Positions 4,212-61,995 of a stretch of 64,000 nucleotides of DNA are shown here, piece after piece. A program made the position numbers and the translations under genes. The notes below the pieces were generated by a model that saw only the letters and a list, made by a program, of their open reading frames with translations, was not told the origin of the DNA and made no database searches. The DNA is taken from contig SIJG01000038.1 in the NCBI GenBank assembly GCA_023374025.1, positions 270,686-334,685 of the forward strand, given 5' to 3'. Source of the stretch: Heterodera schachtii (taxonomy: Eukaryota; Nematoda; Chromadorea; Rhabditida; Heteroderidae). The first letter of the stretch is position 1. Every line of letters begins with the position of its first letter.

Positions 4212-4550
4212 AAAGGGAAAACTGGGCGCTGGCCCGGTTTTTGGGGGTATACTAACTCTTTCCATATTTCTACAAATCGAAGCCCTAAATGTTCCCTAAT
4301 TACCCTGCAAAATTTCGAAAATTTCATTAGGATACAACAAACACATTGCGAAAAAAAGAAATTCAAAAAAGCTGCATTTCCAAACTTTTTGGCATTATTT
4401 TTTTTGAATCTTAATGAAATTTTCAAAAATTTTGTAGGGTGGTAGAGGACACCTAGGCCTATCGAATTACATCTAATTTACTTGTATGAAGGGGATGCAC
4501 CCCCAAATCCCTGGCCCGGCGCCCAGTTGGCCAGCGCCCAGTTGACGTCC
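4212..4550. mobile_element. Foldback element, arm word AACTGGGCGCTGGCC
   Basis: The left arm (about 4220-4250) reads AACTGGGCGCTGGCCCGG and the right arm (about 4510-4543) carries the same word twice in inverse orientation. The interior pairs with itself: TGCAAAATTTCGAAAATTTC at about 4310 faces GAAATTTTCAAAAATTTTGT at about 4415. The interior also resembles the cores of the elements at 15016, 33405, 54427 and 61285. It has no coding capacity, and I could not find a target-site duplication, so the outer limits are approximate. Confidence 0.65.
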
Positions 4551-14902: not shown

Positions 14903-15015
14903 CTTGGCTGGGGGTGTAACTGATCCCCATCGCTTTTGTTCCTACAATGGCACCTTTGAAGGACGCGTTTGGCATTATGACAATTTTTCATTAATTTATA
15001 ACGGTAGTGGTCAGT

Positions 15016-15476
15016 CGGTTTACCTCAGTTCGGCCGTCACGGTTCGGCCCTCACGGTTCGGCCGTCACGATTCGGCCGGCACGGTTCGGCCCCAGCGTGT
15101 TTTTCCAATATAACTTTCTATAACTTTTTTCTTTGTAATCCAAATCCAACATTGTTGGTATCATTCGAAAGTTTATCATGTTTAGAAGCTTTTTCTAAGC
15201 TATTGCTTAGCGATTAGACAATTAACCAAAAAGTTATACATGAAAATTGCAAAAAAGTCGAAATTTTTGAAGTTTTTCTTAATAAATTTTTTCCAGGACT
15301 TAAAATTTTTTGTTTTTAGCAAGGCTAATAAAGCATGTTAAGAGCTTTCGAATGATACCAAGATTATTGGATTTGGATTATAAATAAAAAAGCTATCGTG
15401 GAAAAACACGCTGGGGCCGAACCGTGCCGGCCGAACCGTGAGGGCCGAACTGTGACGGCCGAACTGAGCGAGTCCG
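15016..15476. mobile_element. Foldback element, arm word GGTTCGGCCGTCAC
   Basis: The left arm (about 15030-15110) is four tandem variants of GGTTCGGCC(G/C)TCAC followed by CCAGCGTGTTTTTCCA. The right arm (about 15398-15468) is its inverse complement with the same number of words. The core is also self-complementary: TTGGTATCATTCGAAAG at 15155 faces CTTTCGAATGATACCAA at about 15345. An 8-bp duplication TGGTCAGT flanks it (15008-15015 and 15477-15484). End sequences CGGTTTACCTCAG and CTGAGCGAGTCCG match those of the element at 61285. It has no coding capacity. Confidence 0.9.
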
Positions 15477-15597
15477 TGGTCAGTTCCGTTGCAGTTCTTT
15501 AAAGCGTTTTTCGTCCCAGAGAAAAATTTTGATCGAAATACAAAAATCGACAAAATACATATTATATTTTTAAATATATAATTGAATTTGTACACTT

Positions 15598-16290: not shown

Positions 16291-18634
16291 ATGAAAATGC
16301 CAAATTTGCTTTCATATTCTTCACTAAGTTGTTCTTTTGCTTCACTATTTGTCGCATTTTTAATTGCTTTTTTCAATTTCTTCTTCTCTTCTTTGGCATT
16401 TTCTTTGGCATTTTCATACATTTTTTCCAATTTTTGCTCAAATTCTTCCCGAATTCTTTCAATGTCCGTTGGTCCGTTCGAAATTTGTTTTTCATTTTGC
16501 ATTTTTTTTATGGGACCAATTTTTCTCTTCTTTAATTTCAATATTTAATTCCTCCTCATTTACCAATTTTATTTCATCAGCGGGATTTTCATGTTTTTTC
16601 CAAAAGAATTTAGAAAAATCATTCATACTTTTGAAAACATTAATTAAACTGCGAGGATATTGTTGTATAATGAATATTGGCTTCACCAATGGTGGCAATT
16701 GTTTTTTTGACACTTTCGGATTTTTAGCTGAATAAATTATTATCATTATTTTAGGGGCTGTAAATTATATGATTTTGCACATTTTTTTTAGCGCATATGC
16801 TATGAAGAAAAGGGCTCAAAAATAGCATTTCTACGTTAAAATTTATTTGATTTGGTGAAGGTTTTTATTCCATATAAATCCATATTTTGGGGGTTTTCGA
16901 GAATAAATGTATATTTCGCCATTTTTGCATTTTTAGAGCATATTTCAGCCATTTTTGACAAATTTTCGAAAGAAAAATTCAATAAAAACGAAAAACACAC
17001 CCTTAAGGATCGACTTTTTGGAATTTTTAAAAAAATACACCCTTAAAAGAAAAATTTTTAAATTTTTGAAAGAACTTTTGAAGGAAAAATTTTTGATACA
17101 AAAGATGAAAAAAAAGTAATTTTGTTTTAGCATAAAACAAAAATTCAAAAAAAAAAAATTCAAAATTGCATATGTAAATTTTTAAATTCAAAATTTTTGC
17201 AATTGTCTAAAAAACGCTCCTAGCAATTGTTTAGGTGTTTTTAAAGTCGATCCTGCATTTTAACACAATTATTGGCATTTTTTGAGAGTTAAAAGCCATT
17301 TTTGGTAGTTTTTAAGGCATATTTTAGTGCATATTTGGGAATTTTTTGGTTTTTAGTGCATATTTGAGGGATTTTTAGTGCATACAACTTCGAACCCTAA
17401 TTATTAATTATGAAAAATCAAACCTTCAGCATATAATCGGAATAAATATTCATATAAAATGTCCACAAATTTTCGATACTTTTGGCATTCTGTCCGTTCG
17501 TTTTTTTCAAATTTCTTCCCAATTTTTTCAGAATGCCAATTCTCTCTCATCAAATACAAAAGGCCAAGATGGGCTTCATATGCTTGCGTCATATGCTTTT
17601 TCGTTTTCTCAATTTCGTCCAACTCAAAAGAAAAAATGAATTCCTTTCACTTTCAATCTATAAAAAAAATTCGAATATTCTTTAGCCAGCTTAAAAAATT
17701 TCTCAAAATTTGTTGCTAATCCTTTGACAAATTCCGAAAAAAGGGCATCTTTATACTAAATGTTGAATTTGTTTTATTTCCATTGAATCTAAGTCTTACC
17801 CATGTGTGTTGATCTTCGAATTTTGAATACGCAATTATCAAATGTTTGTCATCATTAATTTCATCATGATCATCTTCTTGTTCTTCTTCTGCCCTTTCTT
17901 CCGCTTTTTTCAACATTTCCTCCAAATAATCTCCAAAATTTTGTCGAATTATTCCTTCTAAACTTTTATTTGTTTTATAATTATTCGTTGTGTCAATTGC
18001 CAATTGCAAAATCATTTCATTAATTGGCATCATTTGTTCATTTTCAAATTTTATTTCATAATTCAATCTCTTCTCATTCAACAGTTTTGGTTTAAAAGTG
18101 TTTTCGTCAGGTTTTATGAACAAATTGTTTAATTTATATTCATAATATTGTCCCTCCCATTTATTAAAATAAAATCGCGAAATTTTGACGAGACAATTCA
18201 CCGAATAAATTATTGGTCCTTCAATTTCTATTTCACCTTTAAATACGAATTTTGGCTTCATTGTTGGAATTCCGGCGTATTCTCTGTACAAATATTCATA
18301 CAAAATGTCCAAATATTTGCGATATTTTTGGCATTCTGTCCGTTCATATTCCTCAAATTCATCCGCTATTTGATCACACTGCCAATTTACTCTCATAAAA
18401 AACATAATGCCAAAGTGTGCTTCACATTTTCTCATTGAATATTCACTCATTTTCGTTTCTTTAGGACTTTTCATAAATGTTATTAGCATATTGTCCTCAA
18501 CCTAATTAATTAAATGGATTAATAAAATTAATTATTCCAATAAATTATCTCACCGATTGATTTGCATTTAAAATTGGAATAAAAAAATGATGGGAAATAA
18601 TTATAAAAGAAATTAAAGAGAATGAATAAAACAT
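16230..18634 (-). pseudogene. Secreted modular family, member 1 (frameshifted)
   Basis: Minus-strand paralogue of the intact gene at 59055. Exon 1 (18634-18554) encodes a signal peptide of about 25 residues ending SNANQS-like (ILNANQS). Exon 2 runs from 18501 to about 17802 and carries the module ECQKYRKYLDILYEYLYREY. Exon 3 (about 17757-17414) carries the second module CQKYRKFVDILYEYLFRLY, and exon 4 starts near 16731. Two lesions break it: a frame change with a stop near 17635, where sequence present in the intact gene is missing, and another frame change in an 8-A run at 16502-16509. The stop codon used by the intact copy is also lost. Intron 3 is enlarged by an element at about 16753-17398. 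An assembly error at the homopolymer cannot be excluded, but the first lesion looks real. Confidence 0.75.
16753..17399. mobile_element. Inverted-repeat element in the pseudogene intron
   Basis: Left end TAGGGGCTGTAAATTATATG and right end CATACAACTTCGAACCCTA (inverse of TAGGGTTCGAAG) enclose phrases such as GTGCATATTT. The flanks ATTATT are similar, but a clean 8-bp duplication is not evident. It is related to the element at 23488-24176. Confidence 0.7.
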
Positions 18635-26412: not shown

Positions 26413-27596
26413 TTTAAGTGAAAACACAGCAAAAATTTTGTTTTGAGGCTCTATAACTTGTGAAGTAGGCAAAATGCACCGCTAAAATTAAAAATTCACA
26501 ATAGAAGTTGACCCTGCTCTATCCAATGGTATATAGCTGATATGCCTTTTCCTAGTTACAGCTCGGAATATTCCCTTGTTAGCAAAATACTGAATACCAT
26601 TTTAATTATGGAATACCCCTGAAACCAAAACAAAATGAAACAATAAAAAAAAACTAAGAATTCTGAGGATTTTGGAGCGCTATATTCAGGAAAAAAAACA
26701 ACTGAAAATTGTTCATGACCATCGCTATTACATAGACCAAATTGGACCGAATTTGATTATTGGAATGCGTAAGGGAATTCCCAGCAGGTCGATTGTCAGA
26801 AAAAAAAAATTTCGGAGGGTGGAACCCTAAGACTTTTTTTTTACTCTTCGGGCCAACCAATCACTTTTTGCGAAATTTTAAACAATGACGGAACTGACAG
26901 GACGGAACTGATCCGTTCCAAATTAAAAAGTGCCAAAAAATGAAGTGATTTACTTTCTTTTTCCGAAGAAAATAAATTTTCATTTAAATATTGGACACAA
27001 TGTTCGGTAAGAAGCCGGTCCAACTCACAAAGTTTTAATTTATTGACTTTAAACAAGAAAAAAATTTTTTTGAAAAATTGAAAAAAAAATTTTCTTCAGC
27101 CCTTCGTTAAGGGTGTGTTTTTGAACAGAAAAAGGCCAAAATTGCCACATTACAATGGCAATAAAAGTTTTCGAAACCATAAAAGAAATACGGAGGAATT
27201 TAAGGGATTTGAATTAAATTAATGTTATGATCACGAGAATAAAACTGAGATTTATATAATTTCAAAATTTTAATTATTTTTATTTTTTGTTAATTAAAAT
27301 AAAACAGCAAAATGAGAAAATAAAAATTTAAAAAAAATAAAACAAAAGAAGAAAATTTGATAAATCAAACCCAGAAGGACTTTTCGGTTTTGTGGCATAG
27401 ATTTGAATTTAAAAAAAGAACGCGCAGAATTGCAAAAATTTTCGTTCCCTTTGCATAATTAACGACAAGCGCATGGGCGCCGCTTCGCGGCGCCAACCGC
27501 TCTGTTTTGTTCTCAAATAAATTAAAACCTTGATAAAATTTAATGTTTAATTTTATTTTTTCCCTATTCATTTCTCCTCTATCTAGCTGTTTCTCC

Positions 27597-28416
27597 CGGT
27601 CAGGGTCGTTTTCGTACCGCCATTTTCGTACCGCCGTTTTCGTACCGCCGTTTTCGTACCATGGACGTTTTCGTACCGCCGTTTTCGTACCGGGGACGTT
27701 TTCGTACGAGTTCTTGTACAAGCGTCAGATTCGATTTGAATAACTTAAGAATCTCATTCATAAAATATAAAGTAGAAAATTCATAAATTTAACAAAAATA
27801 ACAAAATTCCGGGACAAAATAAGGTCGCATCTCATAGTTTTGGGAAATACACGAAGAAAATTGTTAAGATTTTCGAGATTGACATTGGCATAATTGTGAT
27901 CATTTTGAGGGACAATATTGTTAAGTCCATCGTTACTGAATTTGTGGAACACATAGAGTGCACCATCATTCACCAACTTATCATTATTTCGTTTTGTTTT
28001 AATTACTTGCTGCTGGTTCATTTTATAGTTAATAAAAGCTAAATTGTCAAAACATTAAGAGATTCTTCCAACAATTAAGAAAAATGCAGCCAGGTTTCAC
28101 TGCATTTTTATCGATCGAAATTTTTATCTTTCGGAATTTTCTTTGTATTTTTCGGCATGTTCTTCACTAAAATCAAATTTTGCCTCAAAAAGTCAAACTC
28201 CTTCATTTAGAGTTAGAGAAAAAAAAGTCATTTGACTTAAATTCCCAGCCCTAGTAATTACTTAGATTAAAAAAAATAATATAAATGCAATTTTTTGCAT
28301 ATCAACTGGTACGAAAACGGCGGTACGAAAACGTCTCCGGTACGAAAACGGCGGTACGAAAACGGCGGTACGAAAACGGCGGTACGAAAATGGCGGTACG
28401 AAAACGTCCTGGCCCG
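27597..28416. mobile_element. Foldback element, arm word GGTACGAAAACGGC
   Basis: The left arm (27603-27712) is six inverse copies of GTACGAAAACGGCG, and the right arm (28309-28409) is six direct copies with minor variants (AACGTCTCC, AACGTCCTGG). TGTTTCTCC is duplicated on both sides (27588-27596 and 28417-28425). The 580-bp interior contains a minus-strand frame (28021-27758) whose segment KLVNDGALYVFHKFSNDG resembles the start of a FLYWCH zinc finger, a domain found in several Mutator-like transposase genes. It is truncated and has no transposase core. Classification as MULE-derived is tentative. Confidence 0.8.
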
Positions 28417-33404: not shown

Positions 33405-33598
33405 CGGACCCGATCAGTTGGGCCCTGGCACGTTTTAAAATTGACAAAATTTTTTGAAATTTTGCAAGCTATTAGAGCATCTGAAGAGCTATCGAATGAT
33501 AACAAGATTGTTAGATTTCGTTGACAAAGAAAAAAAAAAGTTGTAGTCCAAAAACATGCTGAGGCCCAAACGTGCCGGGGCCCAACCGAGGTAGACCC
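33405..33598. mobile_element. Short foldback element, arm word GGGCCCCGGCACG
   Basis: Left end CGGACCCGATCAGTTGGGCC, right end GGCCCAACCGAGGTAGACC. The inner part CTATCGAATGATAACAAG matches the right half of the 61285 core, while the left half of the core is missing. It is an internally deleted relative of 61285-61666. No clean target duplication. Confidence 0.75.
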
Positions 33599-54426: not shown

Positions 54427-54807
54427 AGGGGGCACCCCAAAACGTCGCCGGCCGAAACGTCGCCGGAAGACTTTTTGACCATAACTTTGTTCATTGTAAA
54501 TCAAATTAAGCATTCTTGGTGTTGTTCGATAGCTTTATGTGTTTACTATTAATAGGCTAAATTTAAAAAATTTTCGTTAAGTTTCAAAAAAGTTATGGCC
54601 AGAAGGAACTCAAAAACCTAGTATTTCGAAGAACTTTTTTTGCTCTGATTTTTTTTTGTACATTAATAAAAAACTTTGAAAAATTTGTAGTTTTTCATAA
54701 GCTTTGGAACAATACCAAGAATGTTTAATATGGTAGAGTAGTAAAAAAGTTATGGTCCAAAAATTCGCCCGGCGACGTTTCGGCTGGCGACGTTTTTTCC
54801 TGGTCCG
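54427..54807. mobile_element. Foldback element, arm word AAACGTCGCCGGCCG
   Basis: Left arm AAACGTCGCCGGCCGAAACG and right arm its complement (CGACGTTTCGGCTGGCGACG). The core includes CATAACTTTGTTCATTGTAA, CTTGGTGTTGTTCGATAGC and AAAGTTATGGCCAGAA, matching the cores at 15016 and 61285. Flanked by CTTTTTTT on both sides (54419-54426, 54808-54815); the low complexity makes this duplication less certain. Right end TGGTCCG corresponds to the CGGACC end of the 61285 element. Confidence 0.85.
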
Positions 54808-55848: not shown

Positions 55849-56854
55849 GCCTTACGGACATTTGCGGACGGACATTTGCGGACGGACACTTGCGGACGGA
55901 CATTTGCGGACGGACATTTGCGGATGGACATTTGCGGACGGACATTTGCGGACAATTTCGTGCAAAAATAAAAAAATTTCGTAAAATTTTTTTTTATTTT
56001 TCTGAAAATAATGATTGGAGACTTCAAAACAAATAAAACTTTGTTTTTTGGTTTTAAAGCCTAATATCTCATTTTTACACTTCTAAAAAATTAATTTCAT
56101 TAGTCAAAGTGCAAGGCTGGTAATTTTCATTCGGGTGAGAGTGCTGTCATTTTCAAAAAATCCAAAAACCTGAAAATTTATTTTCAATAGGATTTTTTCA
56201 CCGTCATTTTTTAAATTTCTCTAGCCATACAGACAAATCTTTGACTTTGCTACACGCCCCCTCAATTTTCTTTTCCTTATTTGTTCGGTGTAGAGAAGAA
56301 CCAAGATAAATCTTGCTCTACTGTACATTAGCAGGGAAAGCATTCGAGACCCTAAAAATTTTCAGAAAGTCGGAAATCTGATCCCTAAAAATGTTGGGAA
56401 TCGGGTTTTAGTGCAGTCTGTATTTATAAAATAGTCTGTGCATTTTTAAATTGCAAGCAAATTTTGTTCTCTATTAAGCATGTCTCATAATTTTCTAAGG
56501 ATAAAAATAGCACTCTCACCCGAATTTGAGTGCAACAGGCGACATTCACACTTCCCCGATCATGGGGACCAACTCTACTTTAATCACTTAAAAGAACACC
56601 AGCATTGCACTTTGATCAGTGAAATTAATTTTTTAGAAGTGTAAAAATGAGAGATTAGGCTTTAAAACAAAAAACAAAGTTTTATTTGTTTTAAGTCTCC
56701 AATCCTTATTTTCAGAAAAATTTAAAAAAATTTTATGAAATTTTTTTATTTTTGCACGAAATTGTCCGCAAATGTCCGTCCGCAAATGTCCATCCGCAAA
56801 TGTCCGTCCGCAAATGTCCGTCCGCAAATGTCCGTCCGCAAATGTCCCACTGCG
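55849..56854. mobile_element. 1006-bp foldback element, arm word TTGCGGACGGACA
   Basis: Left arm: seven tandem TTGCGGACGGACA words (55859-55951) followed by about 160 bp of unique sequence. Right arm: the same in inverse order (about 56600-56848), including TGCACGAAATTGTCCGCAAA. Inner sequences also pair (TTCGGGTGAGAGTGCT at 56132 with AGCACTCTCACCCGAA at 56509). GCTTCTTT is perfectly duplicated at 55841-55848 and 56855-56862. No coding capacity. Confidence 0.92.
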
Positions 56855-57989: not shown

Positions 57990-58795
57990 ACATGCATTAA
58001 TTAAAAATTGGAATTGATCATAAGTATTATCCAAATCTACTTAATATAATCATTTATTTATTAAAGAATGATGCAATAATTAAAAAATAGGGATTGATCA
58101 TCAGTAGGATTATCCAAATCTACTTAATATAATTATTTATTATATTAAATAATGATGCAATAATTAAAAAATAGGGATTGATCTTCAGTAGGATTATCCA
58201 AATCTACTTAATATAATTATTTATTATATTAAATAATGAGGTAATATTTAAAAATTGGGATTTATCATAAGTAGGATTATCCAAATCTACTTAATGTAAT
58301 TATTTATTATATTAAAGAATGATGCAATAATTAAAAAATAGGGATTGATCTTCAGTAGGATTATCCAAATCTACTTAATATAATCATTTATTTATTAAAG
58401 AATGATGCAATAATTAAAAAATAGGGATTGATCATCAGTAGGATTATCCAAATCTAATGTAATTATTTATTATATTAAATAATGATGCAATAATTAAAAA
58501 ATAGGGATTGATCTTCAGTAGGATTATCCAAATCTACTTAATATAATTATTTATTATATTAAATAATGATGCAATAATTAAAAAATAGGGATTGATCTTC
58601 AGTAGGATTATCCAAGTCTACTTAATATAATTTATAAGTTTTTATTCCTATTAAAGAATGATGCAATAATTAAAAAAAAATGGGACTTCTCATCAGTAGG
58701 ATTATCCAAATCTACTTCGTATTTTTGTTTATTATATTAAAGAATGATGTTAAATAGATTTGGATAATCCTACTTGTGATTAGTCCAATTTTTTA
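57990..58795. repeat. Tandem repeat, about 83-bp unit, about 9 copies
   Basis: Unit contains AATGATGCAATAATTAAAAA, ATAGGGATTGATC, AGTAGGATTATCCAAATCTA and TTAATATAATTATTTATTA. AATGATGCAA starts fall at about 58067, 58151, 58234, 58318, 58401, 58481, 58564 and 58657. The last unit (about 58750-58790) is inverted (AGATTTGGATAATCCTAC), so the array ends in a foldback. Confidence 0.92.
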
Positions 58796-59054
58796 AACAT
58801 TACACGTTAATAATAAACAATTTTTAATAAATAAATATGGATTTTGAATGATTCTACTTATGATTATAATATAAAAGAAAGTGTTGAAGGATAGAATTAA
58901 ATTTTTTTATATATATAATGTTTATTAATGTTATTTAGGTTTATCTAATTTCTTAAGAAAAATTTTTATTAATTCACTTTTAAGTTAATATATTGAAAAA
59001 ATAATTAATAGGCTTTAAATTCCATTTGAAAATTTAATTTTATTTAAGAAAAAA

Positions 59055-60835
59055 ATGTTTTATTCTTTTTCTATTATCCCTTTTCAATTTATTATTCACC
59101 TTTCTTTAATTCACATTTCAAATGCAATTCCATCAGTGAGTTCATTAATCAGGGTAATTATTTTGTCTAATTATTTTTAATTAGGGAGACGACAAAATGC
59201 TAATTGAGTTTGTGAGAAATGGTCAGAAAATGCAAATCATTGAATATACAAAGCAAAAATACGAAGCTTATCTTGGCATTTTGTATTTTATGAAAAAACA
59301 TTGGCAATGCGACAAAATAAGGGAGAAATTTGGAGAATATGAACGGACAGAATGCCAAAAATATCGAAAATATTTAGACATTTTGTACGAATATTTATAT
59401 AGAGAATATTTTGGAATTCCAACAGTGAAGCCAAAATTTGTTTTTAAAGGTGGAATTGAAATAGAAGGACCAATAATTTATGCGGTTAATTGTCTGGCCA
59501 AAATTTCGCAATTTTATTTTATGACATGGGAGGGACAATATTATGAATATAAAATAGACAAAATGTTCAATTCTTTTGGAAATTTTGAACCAAAATTGAT
59601 GAATGAGAATAGATTGAATTATGCATTAAAATTGCCAATTAATGAAATGATTTTGCAATTGGCAATTGAAACAGCAAATAATTATAAACCAAATGAAAGT
59701 TTAGAAGGAATAATTCAACAAAATTGTGGAGAAAAATTTGAACAATATTTAGAGGAAATGTTCAAAAAAGCGGAAGAAAATGAAATAAAATACCATCCAT
59801 CGATAGCAGATGAAATAAATTGGGGCAAACACAAAATAATTGTGCATTCAAAATTCGATAATAAATTGGATTGGGTGAGAATTAACATTCAATAAAAATT
59901 AAACAAATTCAAAATTTAGACTGAAGATGCTTTATTTTCGGAATATGTCAAAGGATTAGCGACAAATTCAGAAAAATTTTTTAAAATGGCAAAACAATAT
60001 GCAAATTATTTACATCGAAAGAAAGAGAAAGGAAATCTTGCTCTGTATTATGAATATGGACTTAGGTATGATGGAATTGGACAAATGATGATCTTTTTGG
60101 GATTATACGAAATTGAGAAAATGAAAAAGCATTTGACGCAAAAATATGAAGCCCATCTTGGCACATTGTATTTGATGAAAGAGAATTGGCACTGTGAAAA
60201 AATGCAAAAAAAAATTAAAGAAAATTGCCAAAAATATCGCAAATATTTGCACATTTTGTACGAATATTTATTCGCACTTTATGTTGAAGGTATGCAATCA
60301 TTAATTAAATTAATTATTTTATATTTAAGGTAAAAACTCAGAATTGGCGAATAAATTTTCAGCAGTTAAGCCAAAATTTATACGTCCTTACGCATATTAT
60401 CAAAATGATTTAATTTCCATCATCAAAAAACTGAATGAAATTTCGAAATGTTTTTGGCAAAAAGGTGCAAATGAATTGAGCAACATCGATGATATTTGGG
60501 AGATTGTTTTGTTAAATGAGGTCGAATTGAATGATGAAATTAAAGAGGAGGAAAATTGGCTTAGTAAATTTAAACAAAATTTATTCGGACGAAAAAATGT
60601 GCAAAAAAAGGGAAAGGAAATTTTAAATTTAAGAAACAAATTTGAAAACAATTTTGGTCAAGAATTTAAGCAAAAAATGGAAAAAATTTATGAAAATACT
60701 AAGAAAAATGCCAATGAAGAAGAGGCGAAATTGGACAAAGCAATTGAAAATGCGGCAAATCATGAAGAAAAAGAAGATTTGGAAAATGAATACAAAGACA
60801 AATTCGGCACTTTCAATTCGTCGCCATTTTCATAA
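59055..60835 (+). CDS. Secreted modular family, intact member
   Basis: Four exons: 59055-59135, 59185-59874, 59920-60289 and 60330-60835. They join without stops into 548 residues (intron phases 0, 0, 1; introns of 40-49 bp). Exon 1 is a signal peptide ending HISNAIPS. The protein has an internal duplication. Module 1 is KYEAYLGILYFMKKHWQC, then ECQKYRKYLDILYEYL, then KPKF; module 2 is KYEAHLGTLYLMKENWHC, then CQKYRKYLHILYEYLF, then KPKF. Module 1 is followed by VFKGGIEIEGPI and a helical region; the C terminus is a Lys/Glu-rich coiled-coil-like helix ending FGTFNSSPFS. No catalytic motif was seen. It is the only one of six family copies in the window with an unbroken frame. I do not recognise the family; export and amplification in a parasite-like genome make an effector role conceivable, but that is inference. 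Confidence 0.8.
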
Positions 60836-61159: not shown

Positions 61160-61995
61160 TGTTTTTTATGCAGGGTTTTTTTTCCATTTTTTCTTCAAAT
61201 TCTCTTCGTAAATTGGCAATTTCCACCGGATCATTGAAATGTTTCTTTTTTTGCTTTTCCTTTTTGATCATTGCCTTTTCTCCACGGACCGGCTCAGTTG
61301 GGCCCCGGCACGTTTGGGCCCCAGCGGTTTTTTGGCTATAACTTTTTTGTTGTCAACCAAATCCAACATTCTTGGTATCATTCGAAAGCCCTAAGTGTCT
61401 TCTATTAGCTTGCAAAATTTTGAAAAATTTCGTTAAGGTTAAAAAAAGTTATGACCAGAAAAATTCAAAAAGCCAAATTTTCCAACTTTTTTGGCCATAA
61501 ATTTGTTCAAAATTGGCGAAATTTTTTGGAATTTTGCAATCTATTAGAGCATCTGAAGAGCTCTCGAATGATACCAATATTGTTAGATTTGGTTGACAAT
61601 GAAAAAAGTTATAGTCCAAAAACATGCTGGGGCCCAAACGTGCCGGGGCCCAACTGAGGTAGACCGTTTCATTTCGAAATACCATTCATTATTTTGACAA
61701 CGTCAATTAATCCTCTAGTGTATTTATCACCTTTTAAAAATTTTGGCTTCGCCAGTGATGGAAATTGTTTTTTTATCTCCGGACTTTATATTTAAATTAT
61801 TTAAAAATACTATTGAAATGATAGAAATATTAACAACAAACCTTCAGCATAAATACGGAATAAATATTCATACAAAATGTCCAAATATTTTTGGTATTTT
61901 TGGCATTCTGTCCGTTCATATTCTTCAAATTTCTCTGATATTTTGTCACAGTGCCAATTCTTTCCCATCAAATACACAGTGCCAAGATGGAAATT
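61160..61995 (-). pseudogene. Secreted modular family, member 4 (interrupted)
   Basis: Reading the minus strand from about 61995: HLGTVYLMGKNWHCDK, ECQKYQKYLDILYEYLF, RIYAEG and an intron start, then KKQFPSLAKPKFLKG and IMNGISK. The frame is then cut by the foldback element at 61666-61285. Beyond it GEKAMIKKEKQKKKHFNDP (61282-61200) continues. The upstream end stops abruptly at the junction with the inverted duplication at about 61996, so the signal-peptide exon is lost. Confidence 0.8.
61285..61666. mobile_element. Foldback element, arm word TTGGGCCCCGGCACG
   Basis: Left arm CTCAGTTGGGCCCCGGCACG with a second GGGCC word, right arm its complement ending CCCAACTGAGGTAGACCG. The core has TTGGTATCATTCGAAAG on one side and CTCTCGAATGATACCAA on the other, shared with 15016-15476. 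Comparison with the uninterrupted paralogue at 55560-55610 shows that sequence is broken exactly at the element's left end. The flanks do not show a clear duplication, so an adjacent deletion is likely. Confidence 0.88.

Follow-up and report, generated by a model that had tools for sequence, protein, structure and literature searches.

Arm words of Tm1-like Mutator/Foldback elements in Heterodera schachtii change in lock-step and appear to track residues of the FLYWCH transposase

A stretch of 64,000 nucleotides of the Heterodera schachtii genome (contig SIJG01000038.1, positions 270,686 to 334,685, hereafter the window) carries a foldback element at 15016..15475, in which an AT-rich self-complementary core is flanked by two arms built from a short GC-rich word in inverse orientation, and four relatives of this element at 4212, 33405, 54427 and 61285. 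All five are non-autonomous and belong to a large set of Tm1-like Mutator/Foldback (Phantom type) transposons. We report that two letters of the commonly shared word TT[GC]GGC[CG], here termed X and Y, change in lock-step through all units of both arms, apparently a new feature that goes beyond the known architecture of Tm1, and that in transposase-bearing relatives these letters appear from sequence comparison to track residues of the FLYWCH domain, residue for letter, a second feature that seems to be new. The explanation that we favour, with a probability of roughly 70%, is that the arm units are predicted FLYWCH sites, that residue changes in the cognate transposase would select units with matching letters, and that elements with a shared core would follow.

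Results

The letters X and Y define four word classes, GC, CC, GG and CG. About 234 kb of sequence was read directly, and counts of the core landmark and of adjacent units cover the whole genome (178.5 Mb in 356 contigs). Most copies were found through exact landmark patterns, and the sample is therefore biased toward well-kept cores. The term autonomous is used as shorthand for transposase-bearing content and not for activity, several of the transposase-bearing copies being decayed.

Genome-wide, 5,680 of 5,978 pairs of adjacent units (95.0%) were alike at both variable letters (1,779 GC-GC, 1,396 GG-GG, 1,182 CC-CC and 1,323 CG-CG), as compared to about 26% expected, by our own arithmetic, from random pairing at these class frequencies. 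The remaining 298 pairs were mixed, against 27 mixed pairs in a control with reversed patterns. This control yielded 192 pairs in all, 165 of them same-class (55, 4, 105 and 1), indicating that a small part of the adjacent-unit count stems from other repeats. The variation was then apportioned within and between copies using 126 units of 14 bp from 19 copies, with X and Y left free in the search. Differences between copies made up a share of 0.95 at X and of 1.00 at Y. At unit positions 8, 10 and 11 this share was 0.81, 0.72 and 0.76, and at positions 9 and 14, where the spacer varies most, it was 0.17 and 0.39. Some neighbours besides X and Y therefore also differ between copies, whereas positions 9 and 14 vary among the units of a single copy. 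The same behaviour is seen in two transposase-bearing copies, L068 and L073. When their alignment is divided into 16 blocks of 150 columns, identity is 0.87-0.97 in the first 13 and 0.73-0.79 in the remaining three. Their spacer order is nearly alike, yet the Y letter of every unit in both arms is G in L068 (16 units) and C in L073 (14 units).

The words are not bound to particular cores. Sixty core pairs were parsed and the 35 with a TT[GC]GGC[CG] word in both arms were counted, the other 25 lacking that word in one or both arms through other word families or decayed or truncated arms. Both arms bore the same word class in 34 of the 35 copies, whereas shuffling the right arms gave a mean of 10.7 and a maximum of 21 agreements in 10,000 trials, and 192 of the 194 units in these copies equalled the majority word of their own copy. 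A copy-specific word carried in inverse orientation by both arms, as the original prediction had it, is the rule among these 35 copies. Forty-four labelled core copies bear five labels, namely the four word classes and one other family, which is more than the one or two ancestral words that would have spoken against that prediction. On the tree of these 44 cores, two families, A (25 rows) and D (19 rows), are split with 100/100 support and each bears all four word classes. The tree requires 14 word changes (shuffled mean 23.3); 22 of its 41 inner branches are open and the well-supported branches force only two or three changes per class. Besides these families, core types B and C carry TTTCGTACAATGGC and TTTATGAGTCCAATCGAC, and one copy of core family A (L004) bears yet another word, GGCCAGTTGCGTCTG, by eye near the word of MULE locus L069. 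In L020 (1082-1696), a core-C element sits inside an arm of a core-A element with a 9-bp duplication by eye, these being nested foldbacks of two word families.

The two arms of one copy also resemble each other in their spacers, as had been anticipated. Spacer sharing between arms of one copy exceeded that between arms of different copies in class GC (0.76 vs 0.24, n = 13) and in class GG (0.83 vs 0.19, n = 9), with 0 of 5,000 permutations in each case; in class CC it was 0.24 vs 0.08 (n = 6, p 0.06, not significant). The test covered these three classes, class CG having two copies.

With at most one mismatch, the core landmark has 5,433 matches in the genome (2,688 and 2,745) and the reversed-landmark control pattern has no match genome-wide; exact inverted landmark pairs at a gap of 160-190 number 290. 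Most of the 5,433 matches lie outside exact pairs of the counted spacing and some fall within other repeats (L005, L008), so that the landmark is spread wider than these elements.

A search of the genome for the MULE domain (PF10551) returned 95 matches, from which 30 loci were fetched. As read from the array listing, 21 of these have word arrays on both sides, seven have one array and two have none; L058 and L059 overlap and are hence not independent, and L044 is partly masked. All 21 loci with two arrays carry one word, inverted between the sides, in units of 14-16 bp, and about a dozen word families can be told apart by eye. In Pfam searches, FLYWCH and MULE fell in one frame in L057 and in separate frames in L047, and L068 gave FLYWCH alone in the two frames tested. 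Four transposase-bearing copies (L046, L064, L068 and L073) carry words of the classes found in core copies, and L046, L068 and L073 also match core copies in their tips, as L073 does with core copy L021. The arm units are 14-16 bp long, tandem, and inverted between arms, and the tips outside the repeats are asymmetric, e.g. CGGTCTAC.. at one end and CGGAACC.. or CGGACTC.. at the other. FLYWCH-MULE relatives occur in Meloidogyne, fireflies and aphids, and Heterodera trifolii has FLYWCH gene models.

Exact flank repeats of 8-11 bp were found at the tips of 20 of 38 word-array copies (34 core, 4 transposase-bearing), taking the best match over a range of tip offsets and including one run of A (L026), whereas flank repeats reached 8 bp in 0 of 1,480 mismatched pairs. 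Copies of every word class have therefore moved as such (class CG with one copy, L028). The core could not be explained as a plain deletion derivative of transposase copies, its landmark being nearly absent from the 30 MULE loci that were fetched: 12 bases of it occur without mismatch only in L052, at 3159, outside the arrays, and the sole landmark pair with up to three mismatches belongs to a distinct core element lying in L067 (2933-3134).

The FLYWCH domain and the 5' arm could be read together in L046, L064, L068, L073 and at places L094-L142. Among 23 copies of the first word family, exactly one of 33 columns separates X (N with G, D with C) and exactly one separates Y (D or N with G, A or V with C). 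In an 82-column alignment of the 19 full-length copies, these X and Y columns were the only separating ones. The X column is the fourth residue after the first zinc cysteine of FLYWCH and the Y column lies in the preceding strand; the residues found at the two columns are N and A in L073, D and A in L100, N and D in L046, and D and D in L106. Eight copies of a second word family, CA[GA][TC]T[GC]CGTC, have R with G and H with C at the X column (H in L115, R in L122). The members L115-L127 of this family show a second variable pair (GT or AC before T) for which no single explanatory residue was apparent by eye.

Trees built without the trait codons were used to count independent changes. With both codons masked, a tree of 22 rows (L064 left out) shows two X changes and two Y changes, each with its residue. 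With the X codon masked, the second-family tree, which is without well-supported inner branches, shows one co-change, and another row set, from which L107, L128, L131, L133 and later loci were left out, gives three X changes on its best tree, or two if well-supported branches alone are counted. Altogether, five independent co-changes are concordant and none is discordant. In nine copies (L101, L102, L110, L121, L129, L135, L137, L138 and L140) the domain or the word was read only once the rule had been noted, and all nine fit both letters; L135-L140 form a separate lineage in the tree. Where the original prediction required a transposase to tolerate or track the word change, the transposase-bearing copies appear to track it.

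The column scan and the masked tree set aside copies with broken frames (L104, L107-L109, L113, L130, L131 and L133), copies in which no word or domain was found (L111, L112, L132, L136 and L139) and L134, whose domain was unread; other word families (L072, L117-L119, L124, L126, L141, L142 and other MULE loci) were likewise set aside from the scan. Several observations limit or count against a link between letter and residue. In the second family, the X column is one of six among the 82 columns that separate the letter, five others doing so too. The X residue of L128, a misfit relic, is K, eight broken relics agree with the rule for X and violate the A/V rule for Y, and L114 carries mixed words, all ten of these copies lying outside the column scan. 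Finally, five co-changes are too few for a sign test. The FLYWCH domain model is nearest to FLYWCH 2rpr and then to WRKY domains, the latter scores perhaps reflecting only a common arrangement, and a search of solved structures by sequence found no FLYWCH-DNA complex.

Discussion

We infer that the word is recognised and bound by the FLYWCH domain. Every arm unit of 14-16 bp would then be a predicted binding site for the FLYWCH finger of the cognate MULE transposase, and the array of units would make the element end a multi-site address. As their covariation suggests, the residues at the X and Y columns would read the X and Y bases, so that a residue change would leave units with the matching letter as the only good sites, and transposition would keep the copies with matching units, as those would be the movers. 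The core elements, having no transposase of their own, would depend on their arms and would either follow suit or take over whole arms, with the result that one core would be carried by many transposases. We lean toward viewing this as a natural two-letter FLYWCH code, in which single residues would set single word bases, all units in both arms would follow unit by unit, and parasites with a shared core would be repeatedly re-addressed.

A chance origin of the shared core and words is rejected by the expected counts and the shuffles. A tentative alternative of some weight is that core elements gain whole arms, tip and array together, by recombination with autonomous or other elements, in one or two steps for both arms. 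When the two letters were masked, 21 of 22 GC and GG core arms best matched a transposase-bearing arm of their own class (in a panel of 18 GC, 7 GG and 1 CC arms), L037 and L102 have four successive units in common, and chimeric copies of Galileo provide a precedent in the part of the source available to us (PMC3573991). However, none of six CC core arms best matched the one CC arm, and when the adjacent letter was masked as well, the count for GC and GG dropped to 16 of 22 plus one tie, with two of six for CC. Exchange would moreover have to bring in both arms from the same donor and leaves the letter switch between L068 and L073 unexplained. Since the masked-arm matches differ by class and by masking, whole-arm exchange and letter-by-letter change may both act in core elements.

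It is unlikely that the word is simply the mark of a subfamily founder, letter and residue agreeing through common ancestry without any reading. The clustering of words on the core tree is what such descent predicts, and the residue link does rest on few independent changes, five in all. Descent nevertheless has to account for four word classes in each of two core families that are fully split, and for one FLYWCH column that changes with one letter in two lineages of a word family and again in another family; by itself it cannot alter 14-16 units together, as between L068 and L073. Even less probable as the main cause is the hairpin-mediated conversion given as an example in the original prediction, by which a changed word would be copied from arm to arm and along the array whatever the transposase does: homogenisation of units would level the spacers too, yet these are mixed within arrays in which the two word letters are nearly fixed, L068 and L073 differ by one letter in every unit at nearly the same spacer order, and the same letter switches are seen in both core families as well as in transposase-bearing elements. 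The arms of one copy do share spacers above the level of same-class copies in GC and GG, and in L041 the unit order is alike in both arms, so that arm-to-arm conversion may contribute, although such sharing is expected from plain descent as well.

The claim that no described system matches was too strong, for Tm1, a Mutator/Foldback transposon of root-knot nematodes (Meloidogyne), shares tandem units in long inverted arms, asymmetric tips and a FLYWCH and MULE transposase (Phantom), according to the portion of PMC3169594 at hand. The same portion describes asymmetric 7-bp tips, 13-15 bp units, 9-bp target duplications and MITE-like members with inverted-repeat interiors, together with a single consensus of the unit in each species and, for M. 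incognita, a single element that encodes a transposase. Unlike what is described there, the genome of H. schachtii by itself holds many families and classes of words, letters that change in lock-step, a link of letter to residue, and cores that different words have in common (PMC3169594, in part). FLYWCH and MULE inside the arms (in the transposase-bearing relatives only), duplications of about 9 bp, inverted unit arrays and asymmetric tips are all found here. Tm1 proper has the unit consensus CG[AT]TTCAGTATCGC and the tips CGG[TA]TAA / CCTACCC, from which the present words and tips differ, and we therefore class these elements as Tm1-like rather than as Tm1.

Galileo, a foldback-like element of Drosophila, also has long, internally repeated arms. 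From the excerpts available, its arm repeats contain several transposase binding sites (PMC3688188), exchange between copies has produced chimeras (PMC3573991), and the THAP domain of a subfamily binds its own arm better than the arms of two other subfamilies (PMC3573991, PMC3688188). According to these excerpts it differs in that it belongs to the P superfamily, its finger is of the THAP type, its duplications measure 7 bp and one group has tandem repeats of about 210 bp, where the present elements have MULE and FLYWCH with duplications of 8-11 bp; they report no letter-residue code (PMC3573991, PMC3688188). FLYWCH has been proposed to be related to the WRKY and GCM1 fingers, which are alike in their zinc-binding four-stranded sheet, and in WRKY a part of the sheet enters the major groove (PMC4350883, in part). 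WRKY differs in its fixed WRKYGQK signature and its W-box, and FLYWCH is too divergent to be aligned with it, according to the same partial source (PMC4350883). In the open-access literature, as far as its text was accessible, we found no FLYWCH specificity study, no lock-step words and no FLYWCH code.

How a transposase can change its binding site without losing all of its copies is an open question, since a large number of scattered sites have to change together. In H. schachtii, sites and readers of several states are apparently preserved side by side in one genome, which makes the question testable by simple binding assays. A first map of candidate specificity residues of FLYWCH would be gained as well.

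Elements and other features of the window

The element at 15016..15475 has a core of type A and words of class CC (TTCGGCC); here and below, elements and cores carry no assigned strand. It is bordered by a 9-bp target-site duplication, GTGGTCAGT, present as an exact direct repeat at 15007..15015 and 15476..15484 (both + strand). Its left tip CGGTTTACCTCAG (15016..15028, +) is identical to the 5' tip of the transposase-bearing L102. The left arm, of five TTCGGCC units with spacers (15029..15091, +), the AT-rich self-complementary core with both landmark copies (15155..15361) and the right arm, of four TTCGGCC units in inverse orientation (15415..15463, -), follow in this order. The element at 61285..61666 has a core of type D and two units of class GC (TTGGGCC) per arm; a target duplication of at least 8 bp was looked for at its flanks and none was found. 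A truncated core-type element of class GC (33405..33597) has lost most of one core half. Two diverged core elements, at 54439..54796 (the 54427 copy) and 4218..4543 (the 4212 copy), carry the words AAACGTCGCCGGCCG and AACTGGGCGCTGGCC, the former resembling by eye the word AAATCTCGCCGGCCG of MULE locus L065. The arm words of the five elements had been called unrelated, which holds for these two, belonging to other families, and not for TTCGGCC at 15016 and TTGGGCC at 33405 and 61285, which are one letter apart.

Six matches to the landmark TTGGTATCATTCGAAAG with up to two mismatches occur in the window, against 0.07 expected. The inverted pair is exact at 15016, and at 61285 one copy is exact and the other has one mismatch. 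Core landmarks had been predicted in all five elements, and both copies are indeed kept in these two, whereas at 4212, 33405 and 54427 the 15 landmark bases are 2-7 mismatches off on one or other strand. The interiors of these three nonetheless align with fetched core copies at scores of 181, 160 and 207, as compared to shuffle maxima of 66-78 (30 shuffles each). By their interiors all five elements are thus kin, in agreement with the constant core originally proposed. None of the core elements in the window encodes a transposase.

Two more foldbacks in the window lack this core and are otherwise of like build. One, at 27598..28415, has the word CGTTTTCGTACCGC and contains a match of 29 amino acids (27926-28012, -) to the N-terminal end of the FLYWCH-MULE protein P0053, which suggests that it is a deletion derivative. 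The other, of about 1 kb at 55854..56847, has the 14-bp word ACGGACATTTGCGG, representing another word family in the window, with arms that are 92-98% complementary over several pairings; a transposase match was sought in it and none was found at E 1e-4. Outside the foldbacks, a Heterodera trifolii gene model that bears the name FLYWCH-type gave a tblastn match at 26612-26785 (E 1e-07, 48% over 58 amino acids, its residues 292-349). The open reading frames at 17716-18489 (-, 257 amino acids) and 59197-59895 (+, 232 amino acids) resemble by eye members of one gene family. A search with one open reading frame of the window found no relative. Lastly, an 84-bp tandem repeat is present nine times at 57992-58749, with an inverted relative at 58725-58803.
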